This document shows, piece after piece, positions 1-58,348 of a DNA stretch of 64,000 nucleotides. This stretch comes from Sipunculus nudus. Lineage: Eukaryota; Annelida; Sipuncula; Golfingiida; Sipunculidae. The translations under genes were made by a program, and so were the position numbers. Under the pieces are notes generated by a model. It was not told the DNA's origin. It saw nothing but the letters and a program-made list of their open reading frames with translations, and ran no database searches. Numbering within the stretch: position 1 is the stretch's first letter; every line of letters begins with the position of its first letter. The DNA lies in contig CM049307.1 in NCBI GenBank assembly GCA_026874595.1, positions 35,322,862 to 35,386,861 on the forward strand. The letters run 5' to 3'.

Positions 1-2239
1 CAGAATCTGGTCAGCCAAAGCAACCACTTGACCGTGAATTTCTGGCCCAAGAGCTTAACATTGCAGAAGACAGGGACACAGCTTCTGTGTGAGTGACAGT
101 GTTTCTCTGGATATGTCTTTTCATTTCTTTAACGAGCAGTACTATAACTTGTTGAATTACAGTGAAGGAAACTATTTGATAATAAATGGCCTGTTGTTAT
201 GTAGCCTTATGGATGCTAGGCATGCCAAATACATACTGGCCTTTAAGTCTTAAGTAGTAAAGAAGTTAAGAGTTGTTATTAAACATCAAAGCCAATCGCT
301 TAATGTTCAAGTCATCAGTTTTCACCCAGCAATAACATTCCTAACCTGTAACCTTTTACATTAAAGCACACGGTCTGAGGCATCATCCATGAACCCCATT
401 ACTTAGAAGCCTTTCTTCTCATTATATGTATTTTGATAATGATTTCCCCCCCCCCCCCCCCCCTTTCAGTGCTATGGCATGTTCTCATTTGTTGAATTTT
501 TTGTGAACATGATAACTTTAAGAAGCACTGCATGTGGAAAAGAAATCTCGGAAAAGTTTGTAAACCAGTCACCTTGACCAGGATCTTCAAGCTCAAATCA
601 GCTGAAATGTAAAATTGTTGTGAAACCCATAACTTTGATGTTTTGCATACTATGTATTATATCTGTTGTTACGACTGCAAAAACAAAGCCATTTTAGTTT
701 TAGTTTTTAACATAGGACATAAAGTAGTGATCCACCTAAAATGTTCTTCTTATATTTAAGATATTAAAGGATCAAGTTATTACCTGAATTACACAACATA
801 CTACAGGATCAGTTCACCTGTTATCACCAGAGAATTAGGTTTGTTGCTATGATCAAAAGACATACCAGACCTGTTGTGATGCATCTTTAATTTCCCATAC
901 TTGATGCCACTCCTCTTGATGTAGCTGATCACTGATACTGTTTCTGTGTTTCCTAACAGACCACTGTTGTATGGCATTATTGCCCACTTCTTGACAAGGA
1001 ACCAGAGACAGGGAAACTTTTCCAATAACAATGCCAATCCAATGTCATCAAGGTCAATAGGGTCAAATATGCTGCCAGAGCATGACACTGGTAAGTAATT
1101 TAAAAAAATCTTCAATATTCAAATAGAGGCAGTTCTACCACTCTAGACATAATATATATGAGAAGATCCAGCACTAAGTAAAAAAAAAAAAAGGCTTCCT
1201 GCTAGGCCTTGAAATGTCTTAAAAGGTCTTATATTTTATTTTGCATTACAGTGGCCTTGTAAAGGTCTTAAAAATTTCAGTTCTCCAACACAGGTCTTAA
1301 TTTTACCTATCCTGATAGAATTATATGCACAAGCAGTTTGGTGTCAAACATAAGCTTGTTAAAGAAAAACCTCTGGACTACCACACTCCCCTATTAAATG
1401 AATGCTCCACAAACTGCAGGAGTACTCTAGTGTCTTCAGCAGAAACCACTACAACTTGATAGTTCCCAACTTGCAGTGATCCTCTTTAAGCATTTTCAAA
1501 AGTTTTGAAGTACAGGTATGCAATAGAACAATTTTCTGTTAATAGGTCTGAAAAGTCTTTGGAAGATCTTCAGTTTGCTCGCTGCAGGAACCCTGAAGAA
1601 TCTGTGAAACCCTTTGAAAGTGAAGCAATTTAAGTTAACAATTTCAAAGCATTGACACTTCCTTGAAAATAGCACTTTCCACTGAGGCAAACATGATGGA
1701 AAGTTTAGATTTGAAGACTCTCCTGATTCTTCCTAAATTCATGATCATTAGTACATCTTAGAGCTGGTGCTGCAGATTTCCAATTTTGTTGGTGAAGTTG
1801 TTTCCTGTTACAATCAGAGTTAAATTAACAGAGAAACAGTAAAATATGTGCACAGATATAAAACATTGTTGTCATAAGAGTCCTTTAAAAATCAAAATTT
1901 AAATCTTGTCTTAAAATTTGTCAATGGATAAGTGTTTACATTTAAACTTGTATAACTGTGATTTAATCATTTAGTCAATCATTATTTACTTGAATACAAC
2001 AACATTGTAATGTGCTTGTGATCAGCTGTACCTGGAATTAGTGCTATATAAATAATACATTATTTTTATTCTTATCATTATTATCATTATTATTATTATT
2101 ATTATTATAGTTATTATTATGTTTGAACCCCGTCAGAGGCTGTGCAGACTTTTCTTATTTGTACAATTTTTCCCTGCCATTTACTAACAGGTTTTCTCCA
2201 CAAAAATTTGATCCATCAGGAATATATATACTTTTAGTG

Positions 2240-2270
<31 letters not shown>

Positions 2271-5200
2271 ATTTAACAGGGTTCATAATCCCAGGTGGGC
2301 TTGATCAGTATTCTGCACCAGGTCCAAGTAGCTTTGGCTCATGGCTTATGAACCCCTCAATGATTTTTTGTTCAAACTTGATTGAACTTTTTTCATTTGT
2401 GGTGTACACTTGGTTACATTTGAACCTAAGTATAAAACTGTCAACTGGTTCAAGAGGATTAAACTGGTCAAAATTTAACAAACATGCAGATTGGGCTAAT
2501 AATAACTTATTTTCCAACAGTTCTTATTGTGGAGAGTAATGATTATTTTAAGAAGTTCTAATATCTTAATTAATGAGACAGTGCTTTATCAATCTACCCT
2601 ACAAATGATTACATCATCAGTACTCCTAATTACACCATCACCAGTAAACACCTCATTAATAAACCAGGGTAGATAAAAATTGTTTACTTTTGGCATAAAA
2701 CCAGGTTATAATGAGCTTTATCAGCTCTAGTGAAAGACATTTTGTTATGTTCCCTCCTTTGTGTCCCTTATCACCAGTTGATCTACTTTTAGGTGCTGTT
2801 ATTTTTATTGAGGATATCAAAATAGATCTGTTCTTTACATGGAGAGCTTGGTAGCTTGTTATCTTAATAACATAAACAGCTGTTTGTTTTCCTATTCAGC
2901 ATTCCATTTTCACATCAACAAAGCACAAGCTCTGTGTGTAGACAAATTTTAGCATTATTTTTTAGTTTTTGTGGAGGCCATAACAAAATTTATTGTTCTG
3001 TGATTCACTGCTCTAATTTTATGTGGATCAATTTATTTTGCAAGTCAATACCAGGTTCTTGGTTATGTTGTTAAATTGTGCTATGACACAAATACCTAAA
3101 AGAACTCTTAAAGGTGTTGAAAACTGACTACATGTTTTTATGCCCCCGCCACAAAGTGGCCGGGGCATATAGTTTTACCCATGTCCGTCATTCCGTCCTT
3201 CTGTCCTTCCGAAATCAAACAGTTGTACGGACTTTTTTTCGCAATGCCTGCAGATATTGGCCTGATTTTTGGTGTGTGGGCAGATATAGACCAGTTACAG
3301 ATCGAGTTCGCGTTTCTTCCCGGTTGACCTACTTTTGACCGTTTTACGGCTCCTAAACTTAGAAAATTTCATGAAAAATATGAAATTTCATGACAAATAC
3401 ACATGTACGGACTTTTTTTCGCAATGCCTGCAGATATTGGCCTGATTTTTGGTGTGTGGGCAGATAATGACCAGTTACAGATCAAGTTCGCGTTTCGTCC
3501 CGGTTGACCTACTTTTGACCGTTTTACGGCTCCTGAACATAGAAAATTTCATGAAAAATATGAAATTTCATGACAAATACACATGTACGGATTTTTTTTC
3601 GCAATGCCTGCAGGTATTGGCCTGATTTTAGGTGTGTGGGCAGATAATGACCAGTTACAGATCGAGTTCGCGTTTCGTCCCGGTTGACCTACTTTTGACC
3701 GTTTTACAGCTCCTGAACATAGAAAATTTCATGAAAAATATGAAATTTCATGACAAATACACATGTACGGACTTTTTTTCGCAATGCCTGCAGATATTGG
3801 CCTGATTTTTGGTGTGTGGGCAGATAATGACCAGTTACAGATCGAGTTCGCGTTTTGTCCGGGTTGACCTAATTTTGATCGTTTAATGGCTCCTGAACAT
3901 AGAAAATTTCATGAAAAATATGAAATTTCATGACAAATACACATGTACGTACTTTTTTTCACAATGCCTGCAGATATTGGCCTGATTTTTGGTGTGTGGG
4001 CAGATATTGACCAGTTACAGATCGGGTTTGCCTTTTGTCCCAGTTGACCTACTTTTGACTGTTTTACGGCTCTTAAACTTAGAAAATTTCATGAAAAATA
4101 GAAATTTTCATGACAAATACACATGTACGGACTTTTTTTCGCAATGCCTGCAGATATTGGCCTGATTTTTGGTGTGTGGGCAGATAATGACCAGTTACAG
4201 ATTGAGTTCGCGTTTCGTCCCGGTTGACCTAGTTTTGAACGTTTTACGCCTCCTTAACTTAGAAAATTTCATGAAAAATAGAAATAATGACAGATACACA
4301 TGTATGGACTTTTTTTGGCAATGCCTGCAGATATTGGCCTGATTTTTGGTGTGTGGGCAGATATAGACCAGTTACAGATTGAGTTCCCGTTTCGTCCCGG
4401 TTAACCTACTTTTGACTGTTTTACGGCTCCTGAACTTAGAAAATTTCATGAAAAATATGAAATTTCATGACAAATACACATGTACGGACTTTTTTTTTGC
4501 AATGCCTACAGATATTGGCCTGATTTTTTGTGTGTAGGCAGATATTGACCAGTTACAGATCAAGTTCGCGTTTCGTCCCAGTTGACCTACTTTTGATTGT
4601 TTTACGGCTCCTGAACATAGAAAATTTCATGTAAAATATAAATTTTCATGACAAATACACTTGTACAGACTTTTCTTCGCAATACCTGCAGATACTGGCC
4701 TGATTTTTGGTGTGTGGGCAGATAATGACCAGTTACAGATCGAGTTCACGTTTTGTTCCAGTTGACCTACTTTTGACCATTTGACGGTGCTCTAACATAG
4801 AAAATTTCATAAAAAAGTGCACATGTATGGACTTTTTTCGCAGTACTGCCTGCAGATACGGGCATGATTTTTGGTGTGTAGGCAGATAATGACCAGTTAC
4901 AGATCGAGTTCTTGTTTTGTCCCAGTTGACCTACTTTTGACCATTTGACTGCTGCTGAACATAGAAAGTTTCTTTAAAATAGAAATTTTCATAACAAATG
5001 CATATGTACTGATTTTTTTCCTCAATGCCTGCAGATACCACCCTGATTTTTTATGTGTGGGCAGATAATGACAGTTACAGATCGAGTTCGCATTTCATCC
5101 CGGTTGACCTACTTTTGATTGTTTTACGCCTCCTAAACATAGAAAATTTCATGAAAGACAGAAAATTTTATGGAAAATGCACATGTATGGACTTGTTTTT

Positions 5201-5981
5201 CACAGTGCCTGCATATACTGGCTTGATTTTTGGTGTGTTGCTTTATAATGACCCGTTACAGATCGAGTTTGCATTTTGCCCTTGTTGACCTACTTTTGAC
5301 AATACGACACCTCCTGAACTTAAAAAATTTTTCAAAATTTTACAAATGTTTCTAATTTGCCCCAGGCGGGGGCATTCGTGTCGTTCCGACACATCTAGTT
5401 TTGATCATATAAACCATTTCAAGAACTTGAGAATTTATGTATTTTCTAGGCAAGCTAATAAAATTGTATCTCAACTGGTAAAAAAATTGTCCACTTGCAC
5501 CATGTTTTTTTTCCTAGAGTCTGCAGAACAATAAATTTTTTTGTATGGTCGTAGTCTAAAAATGGAAATGGTATGATATTTCACTGGCATTACTATGCTT
5601 ATTTATATGTAATGTTTAACTATAGAATGCTGAACTTGAGTATATATTTATTAACACTGTTCAATGAGGGATGACTTTAAAGTACTGGTAAATGGCTGTA
5701 TAGTGATTCAACAAATAAGTGAGCAGGGGGAAAAAAATGAGAAAAAAAGGACAGGAGAAAACAGGAGAAAACCAACCACCCAGGTAATCACACATGGATA
5801 TTAATATTATGTGGTGTTATCTTTAAAATATGCATATGCAGTCATGATTGTAAGGTATGGTGCAAATGTCATGGTAATATTTAATTATTATAAACTGTCT
5901 GTCTTGAAAACATCTGTTTCATGATTTTCAGGTGAGCCAGGAGAGGACTCTGCAGGTGATGCATTGATATTCCGTCGGTGA
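1..5981 (+). CDS. 3' terminal exons of an unrecognised protein-coding gene (partial, 5' end outside window)
   Basis: Three exons join in one open frame. Exon A runs from the window edge (or just inside it) to 88, with donor GTGAGT. Exon B is 960-1090, with acceptor TCCTAACAG and donor GTAAGT. Exon C is 5932-5981, with acceptor TTTTCAG and stop TGA at 5979-5981. Phases fit: A ends with two bases of a codon, B ends with one, C supplies two. The visible C-terminus has a first part including REFLAQELNIAEDRDTASV, then a hydrophobic stretch PLLYGIIAHFL, a polar Asn/Ser-rich segment (QGNFSNNNANPMSSRS) and an acidic tail ending in DALIFRR. I do not recognise the family. The hydrophobic stretch is too short to call a membrane segment with confidence. 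The fit of two independent splice junctions and the frame is the main evidence; without the 5' exons the product cannot be named. Intron B-C is 4.8 kb and hosts the Helentron-like element. Confidence 0.62.
1091..3128. other. Intronic unique sequence with simple repeats
   Basis: This is the first part of the intron between the second and third exons of the left-edge gene. Apart from an A-run near 1180, an (ATT)n tract at about 2078-2120 and a (TA)n tract at about 2238-2263, I see no repeat family and no convincing exon. Short open frames here have no coding character. Confidence 0.5.
3140..5398. mobile_element. Helitron/Helentron-like non-autonomous element with internal satellite
   Basis: The left end carries ATGCCCCCGCC at 3140-3150, and the exact inverse GGCGGGGGCAT is at 5365-5375. 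The right end continues into a perfect 6-bp stem, GTGTCG-TTC-CGACAC at 5378-5392, followed by CTAG at 5395-5398 and then T. A terminal hairpin before CTRR|T is a Helitron hallmark. Subterminal inverted repeats plus a tandem array resemble the Helentron-associated (HINE/pearl-like) elements described in molluscs; that link is from memory of the families. The left end also folds (CCCCCGCCAC-AAA-GTGGCCGGGG, one mismatch). No Rep/helicase coding sequence is present, so it is non-autonomous. It sits inside an intron of the left-edge gene. Confidence 0.7.
3224..5345. repeat. ~180-bp tandem array, about 12 units
   Basis: The phrase GCAATGCCTGCAGATATTGG recurs at 3241, 3421, 3601 and 3781, with variants at 3961 and 4141, so the first six units have an exact 180-bp step. 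The period then drifts by a few bases through about 4318, 4499, 4680, 4850, 5022 and 5204. Each unit also carries TTGACCTACTTTTGA and an AAATTTCATGAAAAAT palindrome-like segment. Early units are near identical and later ones more diverged, which suggests expansion from the left side. The array forms the body of the surrounding Helentron-like element. Confidence 0.9.
5399..5931. other. Intronic unique sequence before the last exon
   Basis: AT-rich sequence between the Helentron-like element and the acceptor at 5929-5931. A pyrimidine-rich run, then TTTTCAG, precedes the final exon. No other structure is visible. Confidence 0.5.
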
Positions 5982-10599: not shown

Positions 10600-12595
10600 A
10601 ATATAAAATCCCTGAGTTTTGAGACGGATTCACCTTTGCAGTTACCACTGGTCATAATTTTCATTGTACAAATGTACCTGGAAAGAGTGTATAGTATTTT
10701 TTAGATGGGCCAGCTCTGTAGGCCTGTACTTCTGGCCAGTCTCAGCTATTACATAACATGGCTGAGGATAGAGCCCCAGGATTATTACCTGTGATCTTTT
10801 TATAGTCACTGCTTGGGCTGCATCCAGCTCTGTCAGCAGCTTTGCATAACTCACAAAGACTGAGGTGTGCTAATCATGGCTCAACCGAAGAGCACTGGCT
10901 GGCTTACAGGACTGCATTGGCAAAGCAGAATACGATAATGAGCATGCATGGTGCTCATTTGAGACCATTACCTAGAGCGGACTCCCTCTGCAGTTCCATA
11001 GCCTTCCCCCTTCCAGTTAATAAGCTGATCGTCACTGAATAGGATTAACTTCTTCGTCAAAGAGGAGGTGTGAACTGTGGTGATCAAATATCGTCCTCCA
11101 GCTACACTGCAGCTAGTGACCAGAAGTGTAACTCCTGGCATACATTTATATACTTAATAAAAATTGATTGCTTCATGCTTGAGTTTTATTTTATATTTCC
11201 GTATAGCAAAATATAAATGGAAAACATGTTTAAACTTTAATTATGTAAATTATGCTAGCTTAACATCTGAATAGGTTTAATTTATAATTACTTAAAATAT
11301 TTAAAGGAGACACAAAGGCAATATTTGGTTAGTGCATGTATCTGAAATTTCTACTTATAAGTGGCAGTTATTCCGTGACACTCCGTCCTTACCAGCGAGA
11401 GTCCTTGAAAAGTCATAAAATCAGCAAACACGGTAACGCTGTCTACTCACAAAAGATGGTCATTCATTATAAATATAGAAAATAAATCATTTTTTAGCTC
11501 AGCTGACTATAATTCATCTGAGCTATAGTTGTGGTCCATTGACCATCGTCCCTCCGTCTGTCCGTCCGTCCGTTAGACTGGCACGTTTTGAAACCGTTAG
11601 ACCTACGCATAAAAAATTTGGCATTCTGTTAGATGTTGTCAAGATCTCCTACCAAACCGAAAGCTTGGTCACTGCGACATCGTTCCTTCGAGAAATTAAG
11701 GACAGACCTCATATTTCTATTAAAAACCTATTATCACACCTCAGGACTGCCTAATATCAAAACTATTTATCTGTATTTTTCCAAATATTTATCAAGGGTA
11801 TTCTCCTAATATTTCCTTAATACATGCCAGAAATTAAGACTGTTAAGTGTAAATTATATAAGTTTTGTGATTGAACATATTGGAGTTTGTACAAAATCAG
11901 GAAAAATATATCCGCACGTTACATGAAATATTTTAAGCTAGACCCTCTTTTCCAAGTATTTAAATTTGTTTAATTGAGATTCAATTGTATACCCAATATT
12001 AAATCAGAATTTTGTAAATTTTTGAAGTTATTAGCATAAGAATAAAATCAGTACCTTAAATTTTGCCCACATTTGAACATGGCACTTTTTTCCATGTAAG
12101 TACTGTTGATTTAATTTTCACAGCATGTAAACATACATATTTAATTTGATTAAATCTGAAATTTGAAAATAAAAGTTTGATAATAAGGCTAGTTAATAAT
12201 TTTGTTCTTGAGGCTCTTTTGTAGCCACTTGCTTTGTCCAGCTGCAGGAAACTACATCTTGGTTACTGGAAGTCAGCTACGCCAGGGTTCCTGATTTGTT
12301 ACAGTTATTAGGGGAGATCCCCTGTTGTGATAGGTGAACAGTAATTCTCCTATCACGGATTTAAGCTATTAAAGTCTAAAAGTTTAAAGCAACCTATACA
12401 TTCAGTTGTTAAAATTGCATATGTTAAACTTTATCCTATCATTCCAGTGCGGTGCGGGTGAGAGGCGATTTATAATTTAAAGGTGCGGGGAAGTGCGGGG
12501 CGGGTTTTCACAACTGCGGGGCGGGGCGGTTGCGGGCTGAAGGTTTGTTTTGCGGGGCGGGTGCGGGCTCTTTATTCCTGTCCACGTAAGGGCAC
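10600..12595 (+). mobile_element. GC-tailed interspersed repeat, copy 1 (contains a nested element)
   Basis: About 10907-11400 matches the reverse complement of 15918-16413. Landmarks are GGCAAAGCAGAAT, GGACTCCCTCTGCAGTTCCAT, AGGATTAAC, GCAGCTAGTGAC, TTAAAGGAGACA and GACACTCCGTCCTTACCA. Copy 2 ends directly in a GC-rich GCGGGTGCG tail. In copy 1 the equivalent tail lies at 12430-12590, separated by a (GGAC)n-family element at about 11487-12310. The simplest reading is a later insertion between body and tail. Short frames within it (for example 10642-10854) are disrupted and I do not count them as genes. Confidence 0.6.
11487..12310 (-). mobile_element. (GGAC)n/CAGCTGAGCTA-family element, inverted partial copy
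   Basis: It starts with TTTTAGCTCAGCTGACTAT and a (GTCC)n tract at about 11541-11575, then runs through the body in reverse to about 12310. It matches the reverse complement of 37140-37925, including GGCACGTTTTGAAACCGTTAGA near the tract and TGTCCAGCTGCAGG near the far end. The full-length relatives are at 24158-26716 and 28187-30577. Confidence 0.7.
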
Positions 12596-21443: not shown

Positions 21444-24151
21444 ACAAGGCCTACAGGCCTAATGCGAACCTGTGCAAAGTTTGGGAGTATGAATGGAGGT
21501 TCATTTTAAAATTTAATATTGATCCTTTTAAGTCCTGCATATCTACCTTAGTCATTATGATTTTAGCAAAATGGACATTTCGGACCTGCAAGTTTCAGAC
21601 TAGGACATTTAAAACAAGAATATGGGTAGTCTAAAAGCGACTATGTGTATCCGCAGAAATCAGAGTGGGACGGGTGAAGTGAGGCATGGATTAAGTGGCA
21701 AGGGGAATAGAGTGAGGTGTGTTGCATATTAGCATGGATGTCTTCAGCGTAAACGTGAATGAAGGTGGTGCCACCTGTCATAAAATCGAGAAAATTGTCC
21801 GGGATGTATAAACCTGCAAAATTTCAGGTGGATAGGTCAAACCACTGCTGAGATATGAGTGATTTTATCCCAAGGCAGATGAACAGATGGACGGTGTTCA
21901 TGAGTGGTTGCAGGTGGCGCCACCAGTTTTGGTTATCATGAAGAGCTATGTGAGATCTATACACAAGCAAAATTTTGGCCTAATTGGTCGAACGGTTCCC
22001 GAGGTATGAGCTTGGATGTCTGCAGAGTAAACCTGAATGTAGGTGGCGCCACCTGTCATAAAATCAAGAAAGCTTTCCAGGATGTATAAACCTGCAAAAT
22101 TTCAGGTGGATATGTCAAACCACTGCTGAGATGTGTGATTTTACGCCAAGGCAGATGAACAGATAGATGCTGTGCATAAATGTTTGCAGGTGGCGCCACC
22201 AGTTTTGCCTATGATAAAGAGCTATGTGAGATCTATACACATGCAAAATTTTGGCCCAATTGGTCAAACAGTTCCCGAGATATGAGCTTGGATGTCTGCA
22301 GAGTAAACGTGAATATAGGTGGTGCCACCTGTCATAAAATCGAGAAAACTGTCCAGGGTGTATAAACCTGCAAAATTTCAGGTTGATAAGTCAAACCACT
22401 GCTGACATATGAGTGATTTTATCCCAAGGCAGATGAACAGATGGGTGTTGTGCATTAATGGTTGCAGGTGGCACCACCAGTTTTGCCTATGATGAAGAGC
22501 TATATGAGATCTATACACATGCAAAATTTTGGCCCAACCGGTCAAACAGTTCCCGAGATATGAGCTTGGATGTCTGCAGAGTAAACGTGAATTTAGGTGG
22601 TGACACCTGCCATAAATCGAGAAAGCTGTCCAGGATGTATAAACCTGCAAAATTTCAGGTGGATAAGTCAAACCACTGCTGAGATATGAGTGATATTATC
22701 CAAAGGCAGATGAACAGATGGACGCTGTGCATAAGTGGTTGCAGGTGGCGCCACCAGTTTTGCCGATGATGAAGAACTGTGTGAGATCTATACACATGCA
22801 AAATTTTGGCCCAATCGGTCAAACGGTTCCCAAGATTTTCGAGCTTGGATGTCTGCAGAGTAAACATGAATGTGGGTGGCACCACCTGTCATAAAATCAA
22901 GAAAATTGTCCAGGATGTATAAACCTGCAAAATTTCAGGTGGATAAGTCAAACCACTGCTGAGATATGAGTGATATTATCCCAAGGCAGATGAACAGATG
23001 GACGCTGTGCAAAAATGGTAGCTGGTGGCGCCACCATTTTAGTGTATGTTATAAAGCTATCAAAGGGCTACATTTGTGCAATGTTCCTGAGATATGCAGG
23101 TTTATGTGTGGAAACAGACGCACAAATGGACGCTTGGCAGCGAGGGAAGGTCAGAGGTCAACCAAAAATGAGGGCGCAGCAGTTCACATGTGACCTGACG
23201 ATAAACCCAATTCCATAAAATGCTAACCAAGTTTTTTCAAACAACTGAAAGATATAGTTCCAATAATCTGGGAATTCTGCATCTAAACATTGTGTCTAGA
23301 CGTCTAGACGCTGTGTTTAGACGTCTAGACACATTGTCTAGACACCCCCCGAGCCAGGTCAGTTGCCATGGTGATGTCTGGACCCCACCTGTTTGTACTG
23401 AGTGACCTCTTGACTTGGATGCTGAAACTCAGCATGTTGTCAAATCTGTTTTCAAATACAGAAAGCCTTTTTCAATTGGCTATAATGTTTTTTAAAACTG
23501 TATTTTCCCAATCTATTCTTATAAAACTGGCAGAACCCTACCATAGAATAGTTCTTGTAAATTTTAAACCAATCAGCTTAACCGTTTCATCATAGATCAG
23601 TGTATAAGCAAGAAGAGTTTAAAATTACATTTTCGCTTGTAAAAAACACATCAATGTAGGTGGCGCCACCAATACCTCAAAATCAGATATAACATATGTG
23701 ACAAATATTGGTATAAAATTTGGTGATTATAGCTACAGCCGTTTCTGAGATTTTAATTTTAGTGTGCTTTTTTGGACAGATGACTAAGTTCAACCTCCCG
23801 TAACTCAGCCAAAAATCTCCAAACTGGAAACATTCGAACAAACTTGAGAGAGAAAGTTCCAAGGATTATTTCTGTGAAATATTGGACAATTTCGCTGTAC
23901 AGTTTTAGAGAAGAAGATTTTTAAAGGTTTAGAAGCTTTCTCTGTATAAAATCTAAATTAATGCAGAAACCCAATAAAAAGCTCCAGGGCACCAAGTTTC
24001 ACAGGTGACTAATTCTTACATGTAATTTGGAGCTGCTAGCTCCAACAGTTTCTGACTTACAGCCATGGACGGCGGAAAGCCAGCCCTGGACGGCGGACGG
24101 CTGACGATGGACGGACGATACTGCGCCATCGCATAAGCTCACAGGTTCGCT
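21444..24151. mobile_element. GCGAACCTGTG-ended element, copy B (longer array)
   Basis: This is the reverse complement of copy A (6068-7962) but with more internal tandem units. Ends are ACAAGGCCTACAGGCCTAAT plus GCGAACCTGTGC at the left, and GCTCACAGGTTCGCTA at the right, so the two ends carry inverted GCGAACCTGTG. Units begin with CAGGTGGCGCCACCAGTTTT at about 21911, 22188, 22464, 22744 and 23024, a step of about 277 bp. Each unit holds a second palindrome about 130-150 bp away. A GTCTAGAC cluster is at about 23295-23343. The open frames along the array repeat with the units and are not genes. Confidence 0.8.
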
Positions 24152-34245: not shown

Positions 34246-37139
34246 CTTATGTGCACTGTGAATTACTGTGGACGATGGCGGGTGATTAAGAAATAAAAAA
34301 GTGAATGTGAAAATACTATTAATTCCTTTAGAAGTGGACACAGTCCTACTGCACAAGGTAGGTGGTGTCACCTATCTGGTTTATGAGAAAACTTTCGAAA
34401 ATGGATGCACATGCCAAATTTCAGACCAATACCTTGAAATACTTCTGAAATATGAGCAATTTTCACCAAGAAAAATGTACAGATGGACGTCATGGGAAAA
34501 AGATTGTAGATGGCGCCACCAGTCTTTAATACAAGATGGGGGAGTCCAAGATCTATGGATATGCACATTTTCAGGCCAATACGGCAAATCACTCCTCAGA
34601 AAAGGGCATTAATTTATTCTACAAAAACAGGAAAGTAGGTGGCGACACCTGTCTGGGATTCAGGAAAACATTCCAAGATGTATGGACATGCCAAATTTCT
34701 GACTAATACCTTGAAACACTTAAGAGATATGAGCAATTTTCACCCAAGACAAATGTACAGAAGGATGCCATGGGAAAACAATTGCAGATGGCACCACCAG
34801 TTGTGAGTACAAGATGGAGGAACCCAAGATATATGGATATGCACATTTTCAGGCCAATACGGCAAATCTCTCCTCAGAAAAGTTTATTTATTCTACGAAA
34901 ACAGGAAGGTAGGTGGCGCCACATGTGTGGTTTACAAGAAAACTTTTCAAGATGGATGGTCATGCCAAATTTCAGACAAATAGCTTGAACCACTCCGGAG
35001 ATATAAGCAATTTTCACCAAAAGCACATATATAGGTGGACGCCGAAAGATGGATGGCAAAACGATTGTAGATGGCGCAACCTGTCTTGAGTAAAAGATGG
35101 AGGAGTGCAAGATCTATGGATAGGCACAATTTCAGCCCAATCTGTCCATAAGTTTAAGACTCATAATGCTCACAGTACTGTCAAGTGGCAATGAAGGGGT
35201 ATTAAAGGGCACGAAAACATGAGAAAGACAGAAGGTGACGCCACCTGTCTTCCGCAAAAGACAAAGCTATCCAAGATCTTCGGTTAATTTGATTTGTGGA
35301 CCAATGCATGCATCCCTTATTGAGATATTTATGATTTATTGTGACTTTCTGAGATATGAGCAATTTTCACCCAAAGCAAATGTACTGATGGACGCCACTG
35401 GAAAAACAATTGTAAATGGCGCCACCGGTCTTGGGTACAAGATGGGGGAGTCCAAGATCTATGGATATGCAAAATTTCAGGCCAATAGGGCAAATCAATC
35501 CTGAGGGCATTAATTTATTCTACAAACACCAGGAAGGTAGATGGCGCCACCTGTTTGGTTTACGAGGAAACATTCCAAGATGGATGAACATGGCAAATTC
35601 CTGACCAATACCTTGAGCCCAGCAAGGAGAAACTTAACTGAACTTATAAGACCTGACAGTTTCCATAGCTTAAGACATTCATGAGGTGTCCACACAATTA
35701 AACTAGATATTTCTTGGCACCATAGTATCTCCAGACAATTAATCCCCCCCCCCCCCCCCCTTTAAGAATAGGCCACCCATCTGACAAATTTTTAACCCAA
35801 AGCATAAGTACAGATGGACGCCACGGCAAATGGATTGCAGATGGCGCCACCAGCCTCGAGTAAAGGATGGAGGACTCCTAGACCTATGGATATCCACAAT
35901 TACAGGCCAATAGGGCAAATCACTCCTGAGAAAAGGGCATTAATTTATTAAACTAATCCCGGAAAATAGGTGGCGCCACCTGTCTGGTCAACGAGAAAGC
36001 TTTCAAAGATGGATTTACATGCAAAATTTTAGACCAATACCTTGAACCATTCGGGAGATATGAGCAATTTCCACCCAAAGCACATATACAGATGGACGCC
36101 ACGGCAAGACGATCGCAGACGGCACCACCAGTCTTGAATACAAGATCGAAGTATCCAAGATCAATGGACATGTACAATTTCAGCCCAATCTGTCCATTAG
36201 TTTTAGACTTATAATGCTCACAGTACTGTCAAGTGACAAAGATGGGGTATTAAAAGGTGCAAAACAAGAAAAAGACAGATGGCACTACCTGTCTTCCGCA
36301 GAAGACAAAGCTATCCAAGATCTTTGGTCAATTTGATTTTTGGACCAATCCATGTATTGCTTATTGAGATATTATGGTTTTTGTGTGATTTTCACCATAT
36401 ATGGCAATATTCAAGGCCGCTCTCGTAGGAAAGGTCATGACCCCAAGTTAAATATACATCATCCCATAACCCATGTCTATGTATACGGTATGCATAATAT
36501 GAAAGAAATCTGTCCATTAGTTTTTGACTTATAATGCTCAAAGTACTGTTAAGTTGCAATGATGGGGGTATCAAATGGCACGAAAACAAGAAATAGATAC
36601 CGGGACATGACAACACTATCCAAGATCTTCAGTCAAGTTGATTTTTGGATCAATCCATGCAAGATTTCTTTTGATATATGAGTTTTTTTTGTGATTTTCC
36701 CCAAAAATGGACCTATTCAAAGTCAAGGTCACTGTCCTAGTAAAAGTCATCACCCCATTTTAAAAAGGGTCTTCCTCTCACCCATATATATGCACATGTA
36801 AAGTTTGGTAAAGATATGTGGAACATTTTTAGAGTTATTGCGTCCAAAAGAAATCTCTGCGGTGGCGGCACGACCGTGCTAAAACCATTGTATTCCGACT
36901 TTGTCTGGGAGCCCTATAATTGATAAAGACTTACTAATGGCTACAAGAGTAACTCAGCTTCTTATGACATTATCAAAAATCCATGAACCCAATCTATTCT
37001 TATCAAATTTAGAGAACTTAAAAAAAATCTTGTGAAAACTATAACCATTCAGCTTCAGTTTCATCATATAACATTTTTTAAGCTGAAAGAGGCTAAAATA
37101 ACAAGGTTTTTGTCCATGAAATTAACAGGTCGATGAACG

Positions 37140-52081: not shown

Positions 52082-53670
52082 ATAACCCTAGGTTTTGTAG
52101 AGGATCAAACTTTGTGTGTCCGGAGATGACTTGTCAGGCCAATCCGGGCACGGAAGTACCTCCCATATGTTGGACACATGTACACAGGTAGTTGCTATTC
52201 TTCCCTTGCGAACCTCACGTTTCCTCCTGTACTCCGCCAGGCGTCCTATCTAAGCGTCTTCTGCACCTTTGTGTGCAGCTGCACGCAACGCTGCTCGATC
52301 CTGCGCTAGACTTTCCCACGTGTCTGTATTGATGATAGTTTTTTTTTCAGCGATGCTCTAAGATTGTCATTGTAGCGCCTCCGCTGACCTCCGATGGATC
52401 TTTTTCCAGACACCAGTTCTCCATACACAAGTTGATTTGAGTCTTGTATCTGGCATGCGGCAAATGTCCTAGGATCGATGCACGATGGTGAAGATTGACG
52501 GAAGGTTGACACGTGTGTCTGAAAATAGTCTTGCCATCTTATGTTCATCAGTCGACGGATGCAGGTCAGGTGTAAGTGGTTCAGTTGTTTGGCATGTCTT
52601 GCATAGACAGTCTATATCCCGCAGCCATACAACAGGTTAGTGATGACTTCAGCCTTGGAGACCTGGATCTTGGTTTTAAGATGGATACCTCTACGCTCCC
52701 TGACACATTCTGAAGATGCGTTCAGGTCGCAGTCGTCAGCAAAGAGAAGTTCACGAATGGTTGTCCTTACTTTCGTGACGGTATTCAGTCTTCTGCGACG
52801 AGGAGCTTCCCATCTGTGCGGTATCTTATACCGACTCCAGGATCATCATTGTTAAAAGCATCCATTAACATAGCAGAAAACATCAAGCTGAAGAGCGTTG
52901 GAGCTATAACGCAGCCTTTATTTACGTCGTTGTTTACTGGGAAGTCGGAAGATGCCTCACCATCATCAAGGACGCATGCCATCATGCCATCGTGAAACTG
53001 GCGGATGATGATGATGAACCGGTCAGGAAATCCAAACTTGGCCATGATCTTCCAGCGTCTGTCACGGCTGACAGTGTCGAAAGCCGTTGTTAGGTCGACA
53101 GATGTGCTGTCAAGGTCCTGGTATTGTTCTTGGCATTTCTCTTGCAGTTGACGAGTGGCAAAGGTTATGTCAACTATACCAAGACCAGCTCAAACCCGCA
53201 TTGACTCTCTGGTAGAAGACCGTCTTCCAGGTGTAGAATAAGGCAATTGAGAAGCAGCCTAGCAAGGATCCCTCTGTGGTTTTCACAGCTCTATCTGTTT
53301 CCCTTGCGCTTGTATTGTTGGACATATGGAAGCGTCTTTGAATTCTTGTGGCAGTGTACTTTTCTCCCAAAAGGAGAGGAATAACTCCTGGAGATTTTGT
53401 GTCAATGTGGGTCCGCCAGGCTTGTATAATTTAGCAGAAATGGTATCAAAGCCTGGGGCTTTACCACATGAGGGCTGTTTGATGACTTTCTCCACTTCAA
53501 AGATAGAGGATATGTTGTGGAGAGCATCGCTTTTTTTTCTTCTTGGGACAAGCGAACATTAGCATTGTCATTGATGGAAGAGGGACGTTTCAGAACGGAC
53601 TTGATGTGCTCTGCCCACCGGTCCAGGATCTTAGCATGCGCTGTGATCAAGGCCGATCAATCTAAACTCA
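52082..53670 (-). pseudogene. Degenerate non-LTR retrotransposon ORF2 fragment (reverse transcriptase)
   Basis: On the minus strand a reverse transcriptase can be followed through several frames. It begins with AKILDRWAEHIKSVLKRPS (near 53640), then CGKAPGFDTISAKLYKPGGP, LPQEFKDASI, a palm segment MAKFGFPDRFIIIIRQFHDG (53045) with GCVIAPTLFSLMFSAML, and the catalytic FADD at about 52733-52744. After FADD about 60 residues expected in the family seem missing. A C-terminal part (MNIRWQDYFQTHV, GQRRRYNDNLRASLKKK) follows and ends near 52100 in a zinc-finger-like CPTYGRYF...SHLRTH where a cysteine is changed to tyrosine. Frameshifts and stops show it is dead. No endonuclease domain is left. Clade (Jockey/CR1-like) is a guess. 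Confidence 0.85.
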
Positions 53671-53954: not shown

Positions 53955-55627
53955 TATCGCCAGACAATTAATCCCCCCCCCCCCCCCACCTTTAAGAATA
54001 GCCCCCCCCCCCCCATCTTCAGCAGCATATACTGAAATTTGGCAAGCGACTATGGTTTCTTCAATCTATCAACTTGAGGAACAATATTTTTGAACATTAT
54101 AGGGGCCAATAAAGAATCACTCTTATGAAAAGGGGATAAATTTATGCTAAAAAAGGTAAGGTAGGTAGCGCCACCTGTCTGGTCGACGAAAAAACTCTCC
54201 AAGATGGATGTACATGCCAAATTGGAGACCAGCACATTAAAGGACTCCTCAGATATGAGCAATTTTCATCTAAAACAAATCTACAGATGGACGCCATGGC
54301 AAAACGATTTCTTGCCACAAGATTGAGGAGTCAAAGATTTATAGATATGCTCAAATTCAGGTCAATACTGCAAATCACTCCTGAGAAAAGGGCTTTAAAT
54401 TATTCTAAAAAAAAAGAAGGTAGGTGGGCCACCTGTCTGTTTTATAAGAAAACTTTCAAAGATGTATGGACATGCCAAATTTCAGATAAATACCTTGAAC
54501 AACTCCGGAGATAACAGCAATTTTCACCAAAAACGCATGTACAGATGGACGCCAAATCAAAACGATTGTAGATTGCACCACCAGTCTTATGTACTAGATG
54601 GAGGAGTCCATGATTTATGGATATGCAAAATTTCAGGCCAATAGGGCAAACCACTCCTCAGAAAAGGACATTAATTTATTCTACAAAAACGGAAATGTAG
54701 GTGGCGCCACCAGTCTGGTATATGAGAACACTTTCAAAGACGGATGGACATGCCAAATTTTAGACAAATAGCTTGAACCACTCCGGAGATATAAGCAATT
54801 TTCACTAAAGGCACATATACAGATGGACGCCGAAAGATCGATGGCAAAACGATTGCAGATGGCGCAACCTGTCTTGAGTAAAAGATGGAGGAGTGCAAGA
54901 TCTATGGATAGGCACAATTTCAGCCCATTCGGTCAATAAGTTTTAGACTCATAATGCTAACAGTACTCTCAAGTGGCAATGAAGCGGTAATAAAGAGCAC
55001 GGAAACATGAGATAGACAGAAGGTGGCGCCACCTGTCTTCCGCAAAAGACAAAGCTATCCAAGATCTTCGGTTAATTTGATTTTTGGACCAATGCATGCA
55101 TCCCTTATTGAGATATTTATGATTTATTGTGATTTTCACCATAAATGGCAATTTTCACTCTCATAGGAAAGGTCATTTAAATAAACATCATACCATAACC
55201 CATTTCTGTGTATATGCATAATATGAAAGAAATCTGTCCAATAGTTTTTGACTTATAATGCTCACAGTACTGTTATGTGGCAATGAAGGGTGTTAATTGG
55301 CATGAAAACAAGAAAAGGATAACAGGTGGCGCCACCAGTCTGCGGTTAGTGACAACACTATCTAAGATCTTCGGTCAAGTTGATTTTTGGATCAATACAT
55401 GCAAGATTTCTTGAGATATTTAAATTCCCCCAAAATGGACCTATTCAAGGTCAAGGTCAAATTTTCTAGTAAAGATCATGACCCCATTTTAAATAGGCCT
55501 CGCCCTCTCACCCAAATCTATGCACGTGTTAATTTGGTAAAGATCGGTAAAATATTTTTTTGGTTTATCGCGTCTAAAAGAAATCCCGTGCCTAAACCAT
55601 AGTATCTCCAGACTTTGTCTGGCGATA
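53955..55627. mobile_element. GGTGGCGCCACC-array family, complete copy with 11-bp terminal inverted repeats
   Basis: TATCGCCAGAC (53955-53965) at the left is exactly inverted at the right as GTCTGGCGATA (55617-55627). The right end also forms a perfect hairpin CCAGAC-TTT-GTCTGG (55608-55622). The interior has ~280-bp units with GGTGGCGCCACC or variants at about 54168, 54425, 54701, 54858, 55023 and 55326. The phrases TTTCAGGCCAATAGGGCAAA, GAGATATAAGCAATTTTCAC and ATCTATGGATA are shared with 31872-36910. No coding sequence; non-autonomous. Confidence 0.8.
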
Positions 55628-55968
55628 TAATAACAACGTGATATTTATATCTCTCACTTATATGGTCTTTGTGCTCGTGTAGGTATAAGATCCACATATT
55701 TAAACTGAAATTTGAATTTTCAGGTCATCTTGTTATTTAACACTGTGCTATGAATCTCACAGAACTGATCTTTATATATTAACTATTAATTCGTTAATGT
55801 CATACATGAACATGATTGCGTACAAAACGCTGAGTCATGAAACCTCTCATTTCGCAAGCCCTGCAAGTCATCACTGTGATAAACTTATAAACTATGACCG
55901 TTCATAACAATATTATTGTCGCCACCGGATCTGATGATTAAGGTATACCAGGGAGAATAAACACATAA

Positions 55969-57554
55969 GGGTATTTCTACAGAAAACGTCGCATTTCAAG
56001 GGTTCTCTTGGTGATTTTTTTTAATCTTGATTTTAATATAACAAAACTTAATTTGTAGAAAAATATCGTTAGAATTGTAAAATAATGCAAGTAGTGCACT
56101 TTTCCGTTTCCTTTTTTTTTAAATAGTCCAGGAAAGGGGAAAATATAAACCTTTTTCTCGACACCGTGACACGCAGTAAAATCTCACTTGCACATTTCAG
56201 ACATTGTTTTGACTAGATTTTTTTTGTGATTTTCGATAAAATTAAAATTAATAGCCTTTGATAAAATAAAAAAATAAATTTCAGTTATGAATTTAACAAA
56301 AAAAGTGTGTAAAAAAGAACATATTTTCTTCTTTTTAATTAACTTTTGAAAACAAAAATTGTCTCTATTCCTATTTTTGCTTCCAGAGGGGTGCATTTGC
56401 AGGGATTTACCGGACAAAGTATTTTGGTACATCTACCTTCAGAATTAAAGTCGAAATACCTTGATAATTTTTTTGAATCCACAAAAAAATAAAATTTAAA
56501 CATGGTTTTAAATCCTCTGGGTAACGGTGTTGAGCATAGATAACGGTGTTGAGCATAGGTAACGGAGTCGAGCTTCTGAAGAAAAAATACCCGTAGTGAC
56601 TACTTGAATACCAGTATTATGTAATAAAACAAGCAAATGCCTGTTTGAATAGAAGAAACGCAAATGTTTAAAATATTTAGCCCAAAATATGTTTCAAATT
56701 CTATTTCAATAATTTGGATTTAATACCAAGTTCTCGACACCGTTACCTTGCTCTCGACACCGTTATTTTTCATGCAGGTAACGGTTTCGAGTGGTAACGG
56801 TGCTGAGATTTTTTCATCTATACGTTAAATGCAGGACAAAAATTACTTCCATACCGTGCCTAAGAGGGCAGCACGAGTTATCACTACTAGAACAACAAGA
56901 GGAAGCCATTTTCGAAGTGTTATATGTGACGGTTAATTTTTCGCAGGTGTAACGGTGTCGAGTCCAAATAAACATACGGTGATTTTTTTAACCCTTTAAT
57001 GATTAACAGAGAACACTGATATGACAGTTACTAAATTTAATTGTGGATTATGTGTACAAAATTTCCTGAACTCTAATAAACGCTGCTCCCTGCATCAGCA
57101 AAGTGGTTTCTGTTCACGCGCTGCAAGGTCAAAAGGTCAGGTAACGGTGCCGAGAATATTTTGGGAGACATACTTTTTATATCCAAATTTTTGTATTAAA
57201 AACAAAACGGTCAGGAAAAATCAAGCAAAAATATCATCTTAATAAACATTCACCGCTGTTACAACGTGGAAAACAAAATCTATATAAATGGAACAGTGGT
57301 TACAGAAAAACGCTGTTTTGAATTTAAGATCCGAGAGAAAGGGACAACGGAAATTTAAGGGTATTGTAACATTTGCAGCTTTTTTTCTGTATGTATTTCT
57401 GCCCCGATTTAAATTATTTTTTATCTCATAATAATGGTTATATCTTTAGCAACAATCTGAATGGTTATTCATATCATTTTTAGCATTTGCTAATTTCTCA
57501 GTAACAAATATAGTTTCGGGACATGAAATGCGACATTTTTTTGTAGAAATACCC
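55969..57554. mobile_element. 1.6-kb TIR element with clustered GTAACGGTGTCGAG motifs
   Basis: The left terminus GGGTATTTCTACAGAAAACG plus TCGCATTTCA (55969-55998) is matched in inverse by TGAAATGCGACATTT followed by TTTTGTAGAAATACCC (57524-57554), about 31 bp with few mismatches. ATAA flanks both ends and may be a target duplication. Inside, the 14-mer GTAACGGTGTCGAG or a near variant appears about ten times: + strand at 56521, 56540, 56559, 56778, 56794, 56949, 57141; - strand at 56157-56170, 56733-56746, 56753-56766. I find no transposase. The repeated motif could be a transposase-binding site; the family is unknown to me. Confidence 0.7.
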
Positions 57555-58348
57555 ATAAACGTTATACCTGGATTGACACAGCGAACCAAAACACTTCCCT
57601 AATACTTTCCCTGGCAGTTATAGCTCTGTTAAACTAGAAGATTTTAGAAAATTCTGGTCGAGCTTTATAGACTTCGACTAAACAAAATAATTTTCACATG
57701 TTACAAGTTGCAATGAGTGTGGAAAAAAACTGCTCCATGTATGAGTTCAGAAAACTTTTACTATATGCATGTGTCTGTCGGTTCATCCTCGGGTAAGCCA
57801 CAATTAACTGCAAGAAAATCCAATTTTATTAGCAAATACACCCGGAATTGATTTCAAACAGAGCTTTAGTACGCCTCATCTTGCAGGAGGTACGCCAGAG
57901 AAGCGTATGTATTATATATAACGCTCATATGTTAGTAAGCAGCTCTTGCGGTAGATTACAGATATATATGTGTGTACATACACACCGCTGATCCTTTTGT
58001 TCTTGGTGTAGTGGTATACACGTGTACATACGGCTTGTAGGATTCCTGTATTGTGTCAAGGTCAATGGCAAATTGCAGCACCCGTGCTGACCTTGAACGT
58101 TACGAATAGGCCTACATACGCACAATTTTTTTGAAAGCTTCGTAATTTTATTATTAAACCAGTTATATAAATGAAATGTAATCCTCATTTGGTTTTATAA
58201 CTCATGAAGTCATAGCCAATGATAACTAATTCATGATTTTTATTTAAATTATTAATTCCAGGCTCTGACCTGGCCCAAACCGGGAAAATTGGAAAATTCC
58301 GCTACAGCTCAGGACATCCACATTCACTTAATAATTTGCACCTGTATG

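Follow-up and report, generated by a model that had tools for sequence, protein, structure and literature searches.

A 14-bp motif, GTAACGGTGTCGAG, recurs at high density inside a 1.6-kb segment of the Sipunculus nudus genome, which raises the question of what kind of element carries these boxes and what they do. In the 64-kb window (the whole stretch of DNA that was analysed), the motif was found at 12 places with three or fewer mismatches, whereas shuffled sequences contained 1.35 on average and four at most (n = 100). Ten of the 12 places have two or fewer mismatches and are confined to 56157–57154, inside the terminal repeats; the other two, at 11433 and 20771, have three mismatches each. 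The seven boxes to which a preliminary description of this DNA had given coordinates (boxes 2–8 in Table 1) were all found there, on the strands and with the 19-bp step reported, and three more (boxes 1, 9 and 10) lie beyond them. The terminal inverted repeats of about 31 bp that it had claimed align at 90% identity over 31 positions. In addition, the element has a target duplication, absent from that description, on both sides. No start-to-stop frame longer than 82 aa was found in the window copy, and another copy of the family (L004) had no stop-to-stop frame longer than 86 aa inside the element; three frames of that copy matched no family in Pfam.

Table 1. Positions of the element, its termini and its boxes in the window; left and right arrays are named in the direction of the transposase gene
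Feature	Position	Strand	Basis
Whole non-autonomous element, 1586 bp	55969..57554	+	Ends, copies, duplications
Target duplication ATAA, left copy	55965..55968	.	Flank comparison
Target duplication ATAA, right copy	57555..57558	.	Flank comparison
Left terminal inverted repeat, starts GGGTATTTCTACAG	55969..55998	+	Repeat alignment; 353 genome places of end pattern
Right terminal inverted repeat, starts GGGTATTTCTACAA read on - strand	57524..57554	-	Repeat alignment; end pattern
Box 1, 1 mismatch, right array	56157..56170	-	189-191 bp from end in family, C16 and C5
Box 2, 1 mismatch, opens 19-bp-step triplet, right array	56521..56534	+	Motif search
Box 3, 2 mismatches, triplet	56540..56553	+	Two boxes instead of three at this place in C16 and C5
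Box 4, 1 mismatch, triplet	56559..56572	+	Motif search
Approximate deletion junction	56591..56614	.	C16 matches consensus on both sides; positions inferred from consensus by box offsets
Box 5, exact, left array	56733..56746	-	Motif search; relatives
Box 6, 1 mismatch, left array	56753..56766	-	Motif search; relatives
Box 7, 1 mismatch, left array	56778..56791	+	Motif search; relatives
Box 8, 2 mismatches, left array	56794..56807	+	Motif search; relatives
Box 9, exact, left array	56949..56962	+	Same 155-bp distance to box 8 in family, C16 and C5
Box 10, 1 mismatch, left array	57141..57154	+	Distance to box 9 of 190-192 bp in family, C16 and C5

Other repeats also occur in the window. A tandem array of about 11.6 copies of a ~180-bp unit occupies 3224–5330, a 278-bp unit forms three arrays of 2.2–4.7 copies (21726–23040, 34358–35141 and 54319–54927), and repeats related to these units recur throughout. 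A reverse transcriptase fragment lies on the minus strand at 52785–53189 (Pfam RVT_1, E 1e-9).

To place the element in its genome, the window's own assembly (1.43 Gb, 153 contigs) was searched. The element gave at least 41 matches, a lower bound because 40 of 346 candidates were scored, and 37 of the 41, the window copy included, span essentially its whole length at 95–100% identity. The end pattern, with three or fewer mismatches allowed, occurred at 353 places and at none in the control; if most copies keep two ends, half of this number suggests a family of perhaps 175 copies. In 30 copies that were fetched, including that of the window, the sequences beyond GGGTATTTCTACA and its complement are different. 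The exceptions are L002 and L003, which lie on different contigs but have their flanks in common, as expected of a single insertion that was duplicated and not of two separate ones. The copies diverge by 0.4–2.8% from the majority consensus (2.0% for the window copy). Target duplications, which the preliminary description had proposed to look for, were measurable in 28 copies in which the exact motif located both ends (L018 and L026 were excluded). Direct repeats of at least 4 bp flank 25 of these, the exceptions being L012, L023 and L024. These results agree with that description in that many copies end at GGGTATTTCTACA and have the boxes in common. Neither a single-copy locus, nor homology running past the ends, nor an even spread of boxes outside the element, the outcomes it had set against its own proposal, was found.

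The exact 14-mer occurs at 333 places genome-wide, compared with 58 for the reversed pattern. Twenty loci with an exact box away from the listed perfect ends were chosen visually among the first 100 places listed (at least one more, C5:16810977, was left out). In a blastn comparison, 19 of them matched the consensus of the family, with 69–80% identity in the most diverged one. The remaining one (L046) is a copy of the C5-type element described below, so that the idea of isolated exact boxes as chance occurrences was wrong. The boxes are thus characteristic of this family. Similarly, the 331 bp inward of unpaired perfect ends belonged in 14 of 14 cases to family copies or deletions thereof; for one of the two end variants, the perfect ends listed were those up to contig C9.

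Three long intervals between perfect ends were considered as autonomous partners and rejected. The 8.5-kb interval at C2:64048476 (L031) holds a family copy interrupted by a retrotransposon, presumably BEL/Pao-like, with an unbroken 1,902-aa frame. The 5.7-kb interval at C4:73780727 (L032) is a copy split by a ~4.2-kb insert (about 450–4608) that resembles internally repeated DNA in L055 and L053, and the part of C5:61609034 that was read, where the next end on the list is 22.7 kb away, opens with a standard half-copy. The 13-bp end adjoining some other interior was found at 17 places, compared with 20 in the control, indicating that there is no abundant second family with this end. At most of these 17 places, a one-base deletion seems to have displaced a family end; one place belongs to a coding element.

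This coding relative, of 4,919 bp (C16:60909841–60914759), has ends as in the window element. It was located not through a box but through a transposase match together with that end, which stands 1.2 kb before the match. Its left 935 bp align with positions 1–939 of the reverse consensus at 83.3% identity, and its right part aligns with positions 962–996 at 85.7% and 999–1575 at 84.3%. The right end, TGTAGAAATACCC, is followed by ATAT, and ATAT within an AT repeat precedes the left end. Between the matched halves lies a transposase-like frame that is open for 772 residues and 56% identical to that of the C5 element; it is broken near residue 78, with about 78 preceding residues in another frame, and bases 60911291–60913949 are known through the protein match only. 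The preliminary description had proposed a search for an autonomous partner with the same termini; the C16 element is a coding relative with such ends, its frame being broken in this copy.

Because the C16 element matches both halves of the window element and carries a frame in between, the window family represents such an element from which the gene was deleted between about positions 939 and 962 of the consensus. On this comparison, the non-autonomous window element very probably arose by internal deletion from a cut-and-paste DNA transposon of ~4.9 kb that has GGGTATTTCTACA at its ends and makes target duplications of 4 bp. The orientation of the C16 and C5 relatives suggests that the lost transposase gene would read on the minus strand of the window. 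Through the deletion, the array of one end (six boxes) came to lie next to that of the other (four boxes), which gave rise to the apparently central platform. The preliminary description had matched this layout to no family; the element with inverted repeats and boxes is confirmed, and its central layout is a product of internal deletion. More generally, deletion can join the arrays of two ends into what looks like a conspicuous central array of a repeat without genes.

A more distant coding relative of 5,616 bp lies at C5:46440124–46445739 (loci L071 and L056 together). One of its ends is GGGTATTTCTACA, the other is imperfect, and TTTT stands on both sides. Its frame is unbroken over 824 aa, 817 aa from its ATG. 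A second copy, at C9:14896066, is 99% identical, also has an unbroken frame, and carries a facing box pair 1.1 kb before it. The locus L046, which resembles the family only in the four-box core, is a second copy of the L056 element (87% over 1.3 kb). Searches with the C5-type frame against Pfam, NCBIfam and PDB gave sub-threshold matches only, no hAT domain matched it, no relative was confirmed in viral and prokaryote collections, and a literature search found no occurrence of its peptide motifs. The 817-aa frame contains HVDFSENY, ISDGPTTQYRN and HGKGAPDGVGG, which we take to resemble a DDD transposase of the Sola type.

We then compared the boxes between these lineages. Read in the direction of the transposase, the left boxes start at 399-, 591-, 746-, 762-, 787+ and 807+ in the family, at 399-, 589-, 744-, 760-, 783+ and 803+ in C16, and at 389-, 581-, 736-, 753-, 775+ and 794+ in C5. 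The spacings are 192/155/16/25/20, 190/155/16/23/20 and 192/155/17/22/19, respectively. The right array consists of three minus boxes and one plus box in the family and of two minus boxes and one plus box in C16 and C5, and the plus box is 189–191 bp from the end in all three. The C16 element retains nine of the ten boxes. It matches the family at 116 of 125 box bases and at 1114 of 1337 others (Fisher p = 0.0022; this leaves out 15 box columns with gaps in C16, almost all of which belong to the third box of the triplet), or at 86 of 93 and 1075 of 1289, respectively, without CpG sites (p = 0.011).

The C5 element contains nine boxes with three or fewer mismatches, one of them exact by selection, compared with a mean of 0.15 and a maximum of two in Markov shuffles (n = 300). 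Forced alignment of its five inter-box stretches (141–366 bp, with cut positions one base off at each edge) to those of the family gave 61.6, 59.4, 53.8, 64.9 and 64.8% identity. The shuffled means were 62.8, 61.0, 60.2, 64.7 and 62.8%, so that these stretches are no more alike than shuffled sequence. When the boxes were masked, the clearest match was the first 40 bp of one end (80%), followed by 89 bp at the other (right) end at 65% (E 0.072) and three more weak matches that were not collinear; without masking, a 406-bp alignment at the right end reached 57%. The surroundings of the boxes are therefore not wholly free of similarity. As judged from these alignments, the boxes have kept their order, orientation and, nearly, their spacing while most of the surrounding DNA changed.

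The persistence of the layout bears on whether the boxes are a functionless by-product of repeat expansion, by slippage or local duplication, carried along by descent. The 19-bp triplet is a tandem repeat whose third unit is missing from C16 and C5, and conservation among the 30 young copies is weak, as such an origin would allow: non-CpG sites vary by 0.91% in boxes and 1.40% elsewhere (circular-shift fraction 0.077), and CpG sites are more variable in boxes than elsewhere (3.24 versus 2.33%). However, the box bases of C16, an element not chosen by its boxes, are better conserved than the rest, and C5 retains the order, orientation and spacing of the boxes despite inter-box sequence at the shuffled level. 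We consider repeat expansion very unlikely on these grounds. A corresponding comparison of old copies (8.0% in non-CpG box sites versus 11.1%) was set aside because most of the loci had been chosen by an exact box.

Facing box pairs were found at 39 places genome-wide, compared with five in the control, and these include the C5, C9 and C16 elements and L046. Among the 13 places listed with their sequence, three are of the box kind and ten contain another palindrome of 27–29 bp, CACCGTTA(C)TTTTCACTTTTAACGGTG or close variants (C1:3325310, C1:92171361, C4:38988289 and others), which has the box core in common yet looks like another repeat. No facing pair was found near transposases that are 37–43% identical, whose frames lie at C3:60799749, C2:30626681, C16:41480966 and C14:21645230, with a pattern strict enough to miss boxes.

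Facing pairs of sites are typical of dimer binding, and six boxes lie upstream of the frame, from 0.2 kb (C16) to 1.0 kb (C5) before the first ATG. Both features would suit sites that control transcription of the transposase gene, through a host factor or self-repression, and that the gene-less family merely inherited. A promoter would not need the three boxes that lie downstream of the frame in C16 and C5, one of them 189–191 bp from the end, and we regard such a role as unlikely. The preliminary description had also proposed a replication or silencing element, and this or another host platform would be in keeping with dense facing sites inside a dispersed repeat. The layout follows both ends of a coding transposon, however, and the sequence comparisons, which would hardly reveal a host role, gave no sign of replication or silencing. 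We regard a host platform as very unlikely.

Our preferred interpretation, which we consider probable, is that the transposase of the element recognises the boxes as subterminal sites. Subterminal transposase sites were among the suggestions made earlier for this locus; with the coding relatives at hand, this guess appears to fit best, with binding itself inferred. Several observations count against it. The boxes sit 190–807 bp inside the element ends, farther in than is known for CACTA or hAT elements, and L062, of ~0.34 kb, retains both ends with only one box site, which would carry weight if it moved in that form. The weak conservation among young copies, the residual right-end similarity between C5 and the family, the lack of facing pairs near the more distant transposases and the broken frame of the C16 copy also belong on this side. 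If the boxes are recognition sites, the transposase, or another protein encoded by the element, would bind the arrays in both end regions, the bound arrays would gather the two ends, and the inverted repeats would then be cut. A gene-less derivative with both ends and both arrays could be moved in trans by transposase made elsewhere, possibly by the C5 and C9 elements with intact frames or by a closer relative of C16; this analysis found no such closer relative.

Target duplications and ends distinguish the family from several known classes. Tc1/mariner elements duplicate TA, and piggyBac and Kolobok duplicate TTAA, whereas duplications here include GTTT, AGGT, CTTT and AACT, and TTAA occurs in none of the 23 exact 4-bp duplications. 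hAT elements make 8-bp duplications; here they are of 4 bp, and among 28 copies a match longer than 6 bp was seen only in L010, inside an AT repeat. The hAT element Tol2 reportedly needs subterminal repeats besides its inverted repeats, and the same is described for Kat1 in PMC4763223. According to PMC2613891, TNPA of En/Spm recognises subterminal repeats, deletion derivatives move in trans if the cis sites remain, and CACTA subterminal motifs vary between elements. A motif repeated in both orientations at both ends is a likeness to En/Spm as there described that we use as a working analogy only. The family is not a CACTA element, since it has GGGTATTTCTACA ends and 4-bp duplications rather than CACTA ends and 3-bp duplications. 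It resembles MITEs and internal-deletion derivatives in being gene-less, with inverted repeats, duplications and many young copies. At 1.59 kb, with ~0.6–0.9 kb of each end and all arrays kept, the window element is longer than insect MITEs, for which PMC5199201 gives superfamily means of 373–482 bp.

The 4-bp duplications suggest that the element is probably Sola-like. Sola2 has 4-bp AT-rich target duplications and inverted repeats of 12–13 bp, according to PMC3627910. Duplications of at least 4 bp, ATAT in C16 and TTTT in C5 are in line with this feature; only nine of the 23 exact 4-bp duplications fit the AWWT type of Sola2, and the others consist largely of A+T, with one or two exceptions. 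C16 (4.9 kb) and C5 (5.6 kb) are similar in length to bivalve Sola1 elements, for which PMC10294476 gives a mean of 5,445 bp. Since the likeness covers duplication, length and end length and not transposase homology, we did not file the family under Sola.

Gene-less mobile derivatives are of an already known kind, and so are subterminal sites, as in CACTA and hAT elements. The unusual feature is a multi-box code with near-fixed spacing that is common to lineages whose transposases are 56% identical. Unlike CACTA motifs, which vary between elements in the account cited above, the box motif, its order and its spacing stayed while most of the surroundings changed. Our literature searches turned up neither a subterminal box code for Sola nor a described subterminal end code for a 4-bp-duplication transposon of probable Sola type. 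A tentative proposal, which we hold to be possible, is that nine or ten recognition boxes, fixed in order, orientation and spacing, form a code at both ends of a Sola-like lineage and outlast nearly all of the sequence around them, and that the C5/C9 transposase could move the window family across lineages. If this were true, transposases would recognise the same ends despite being no more than 56% identical. The natural pieces at hand, the 817-aa frame in C5 and C9 and the young donor family, make end recognition and cross-mobilisation testable.

Further internal-deletion derivatives of the family are present in the genome (L033, L039 and L057, besides L062). At L041, two occurrences of a partial family copy are separated by 3,831 bp, which looks like a tandem duplication of the region.
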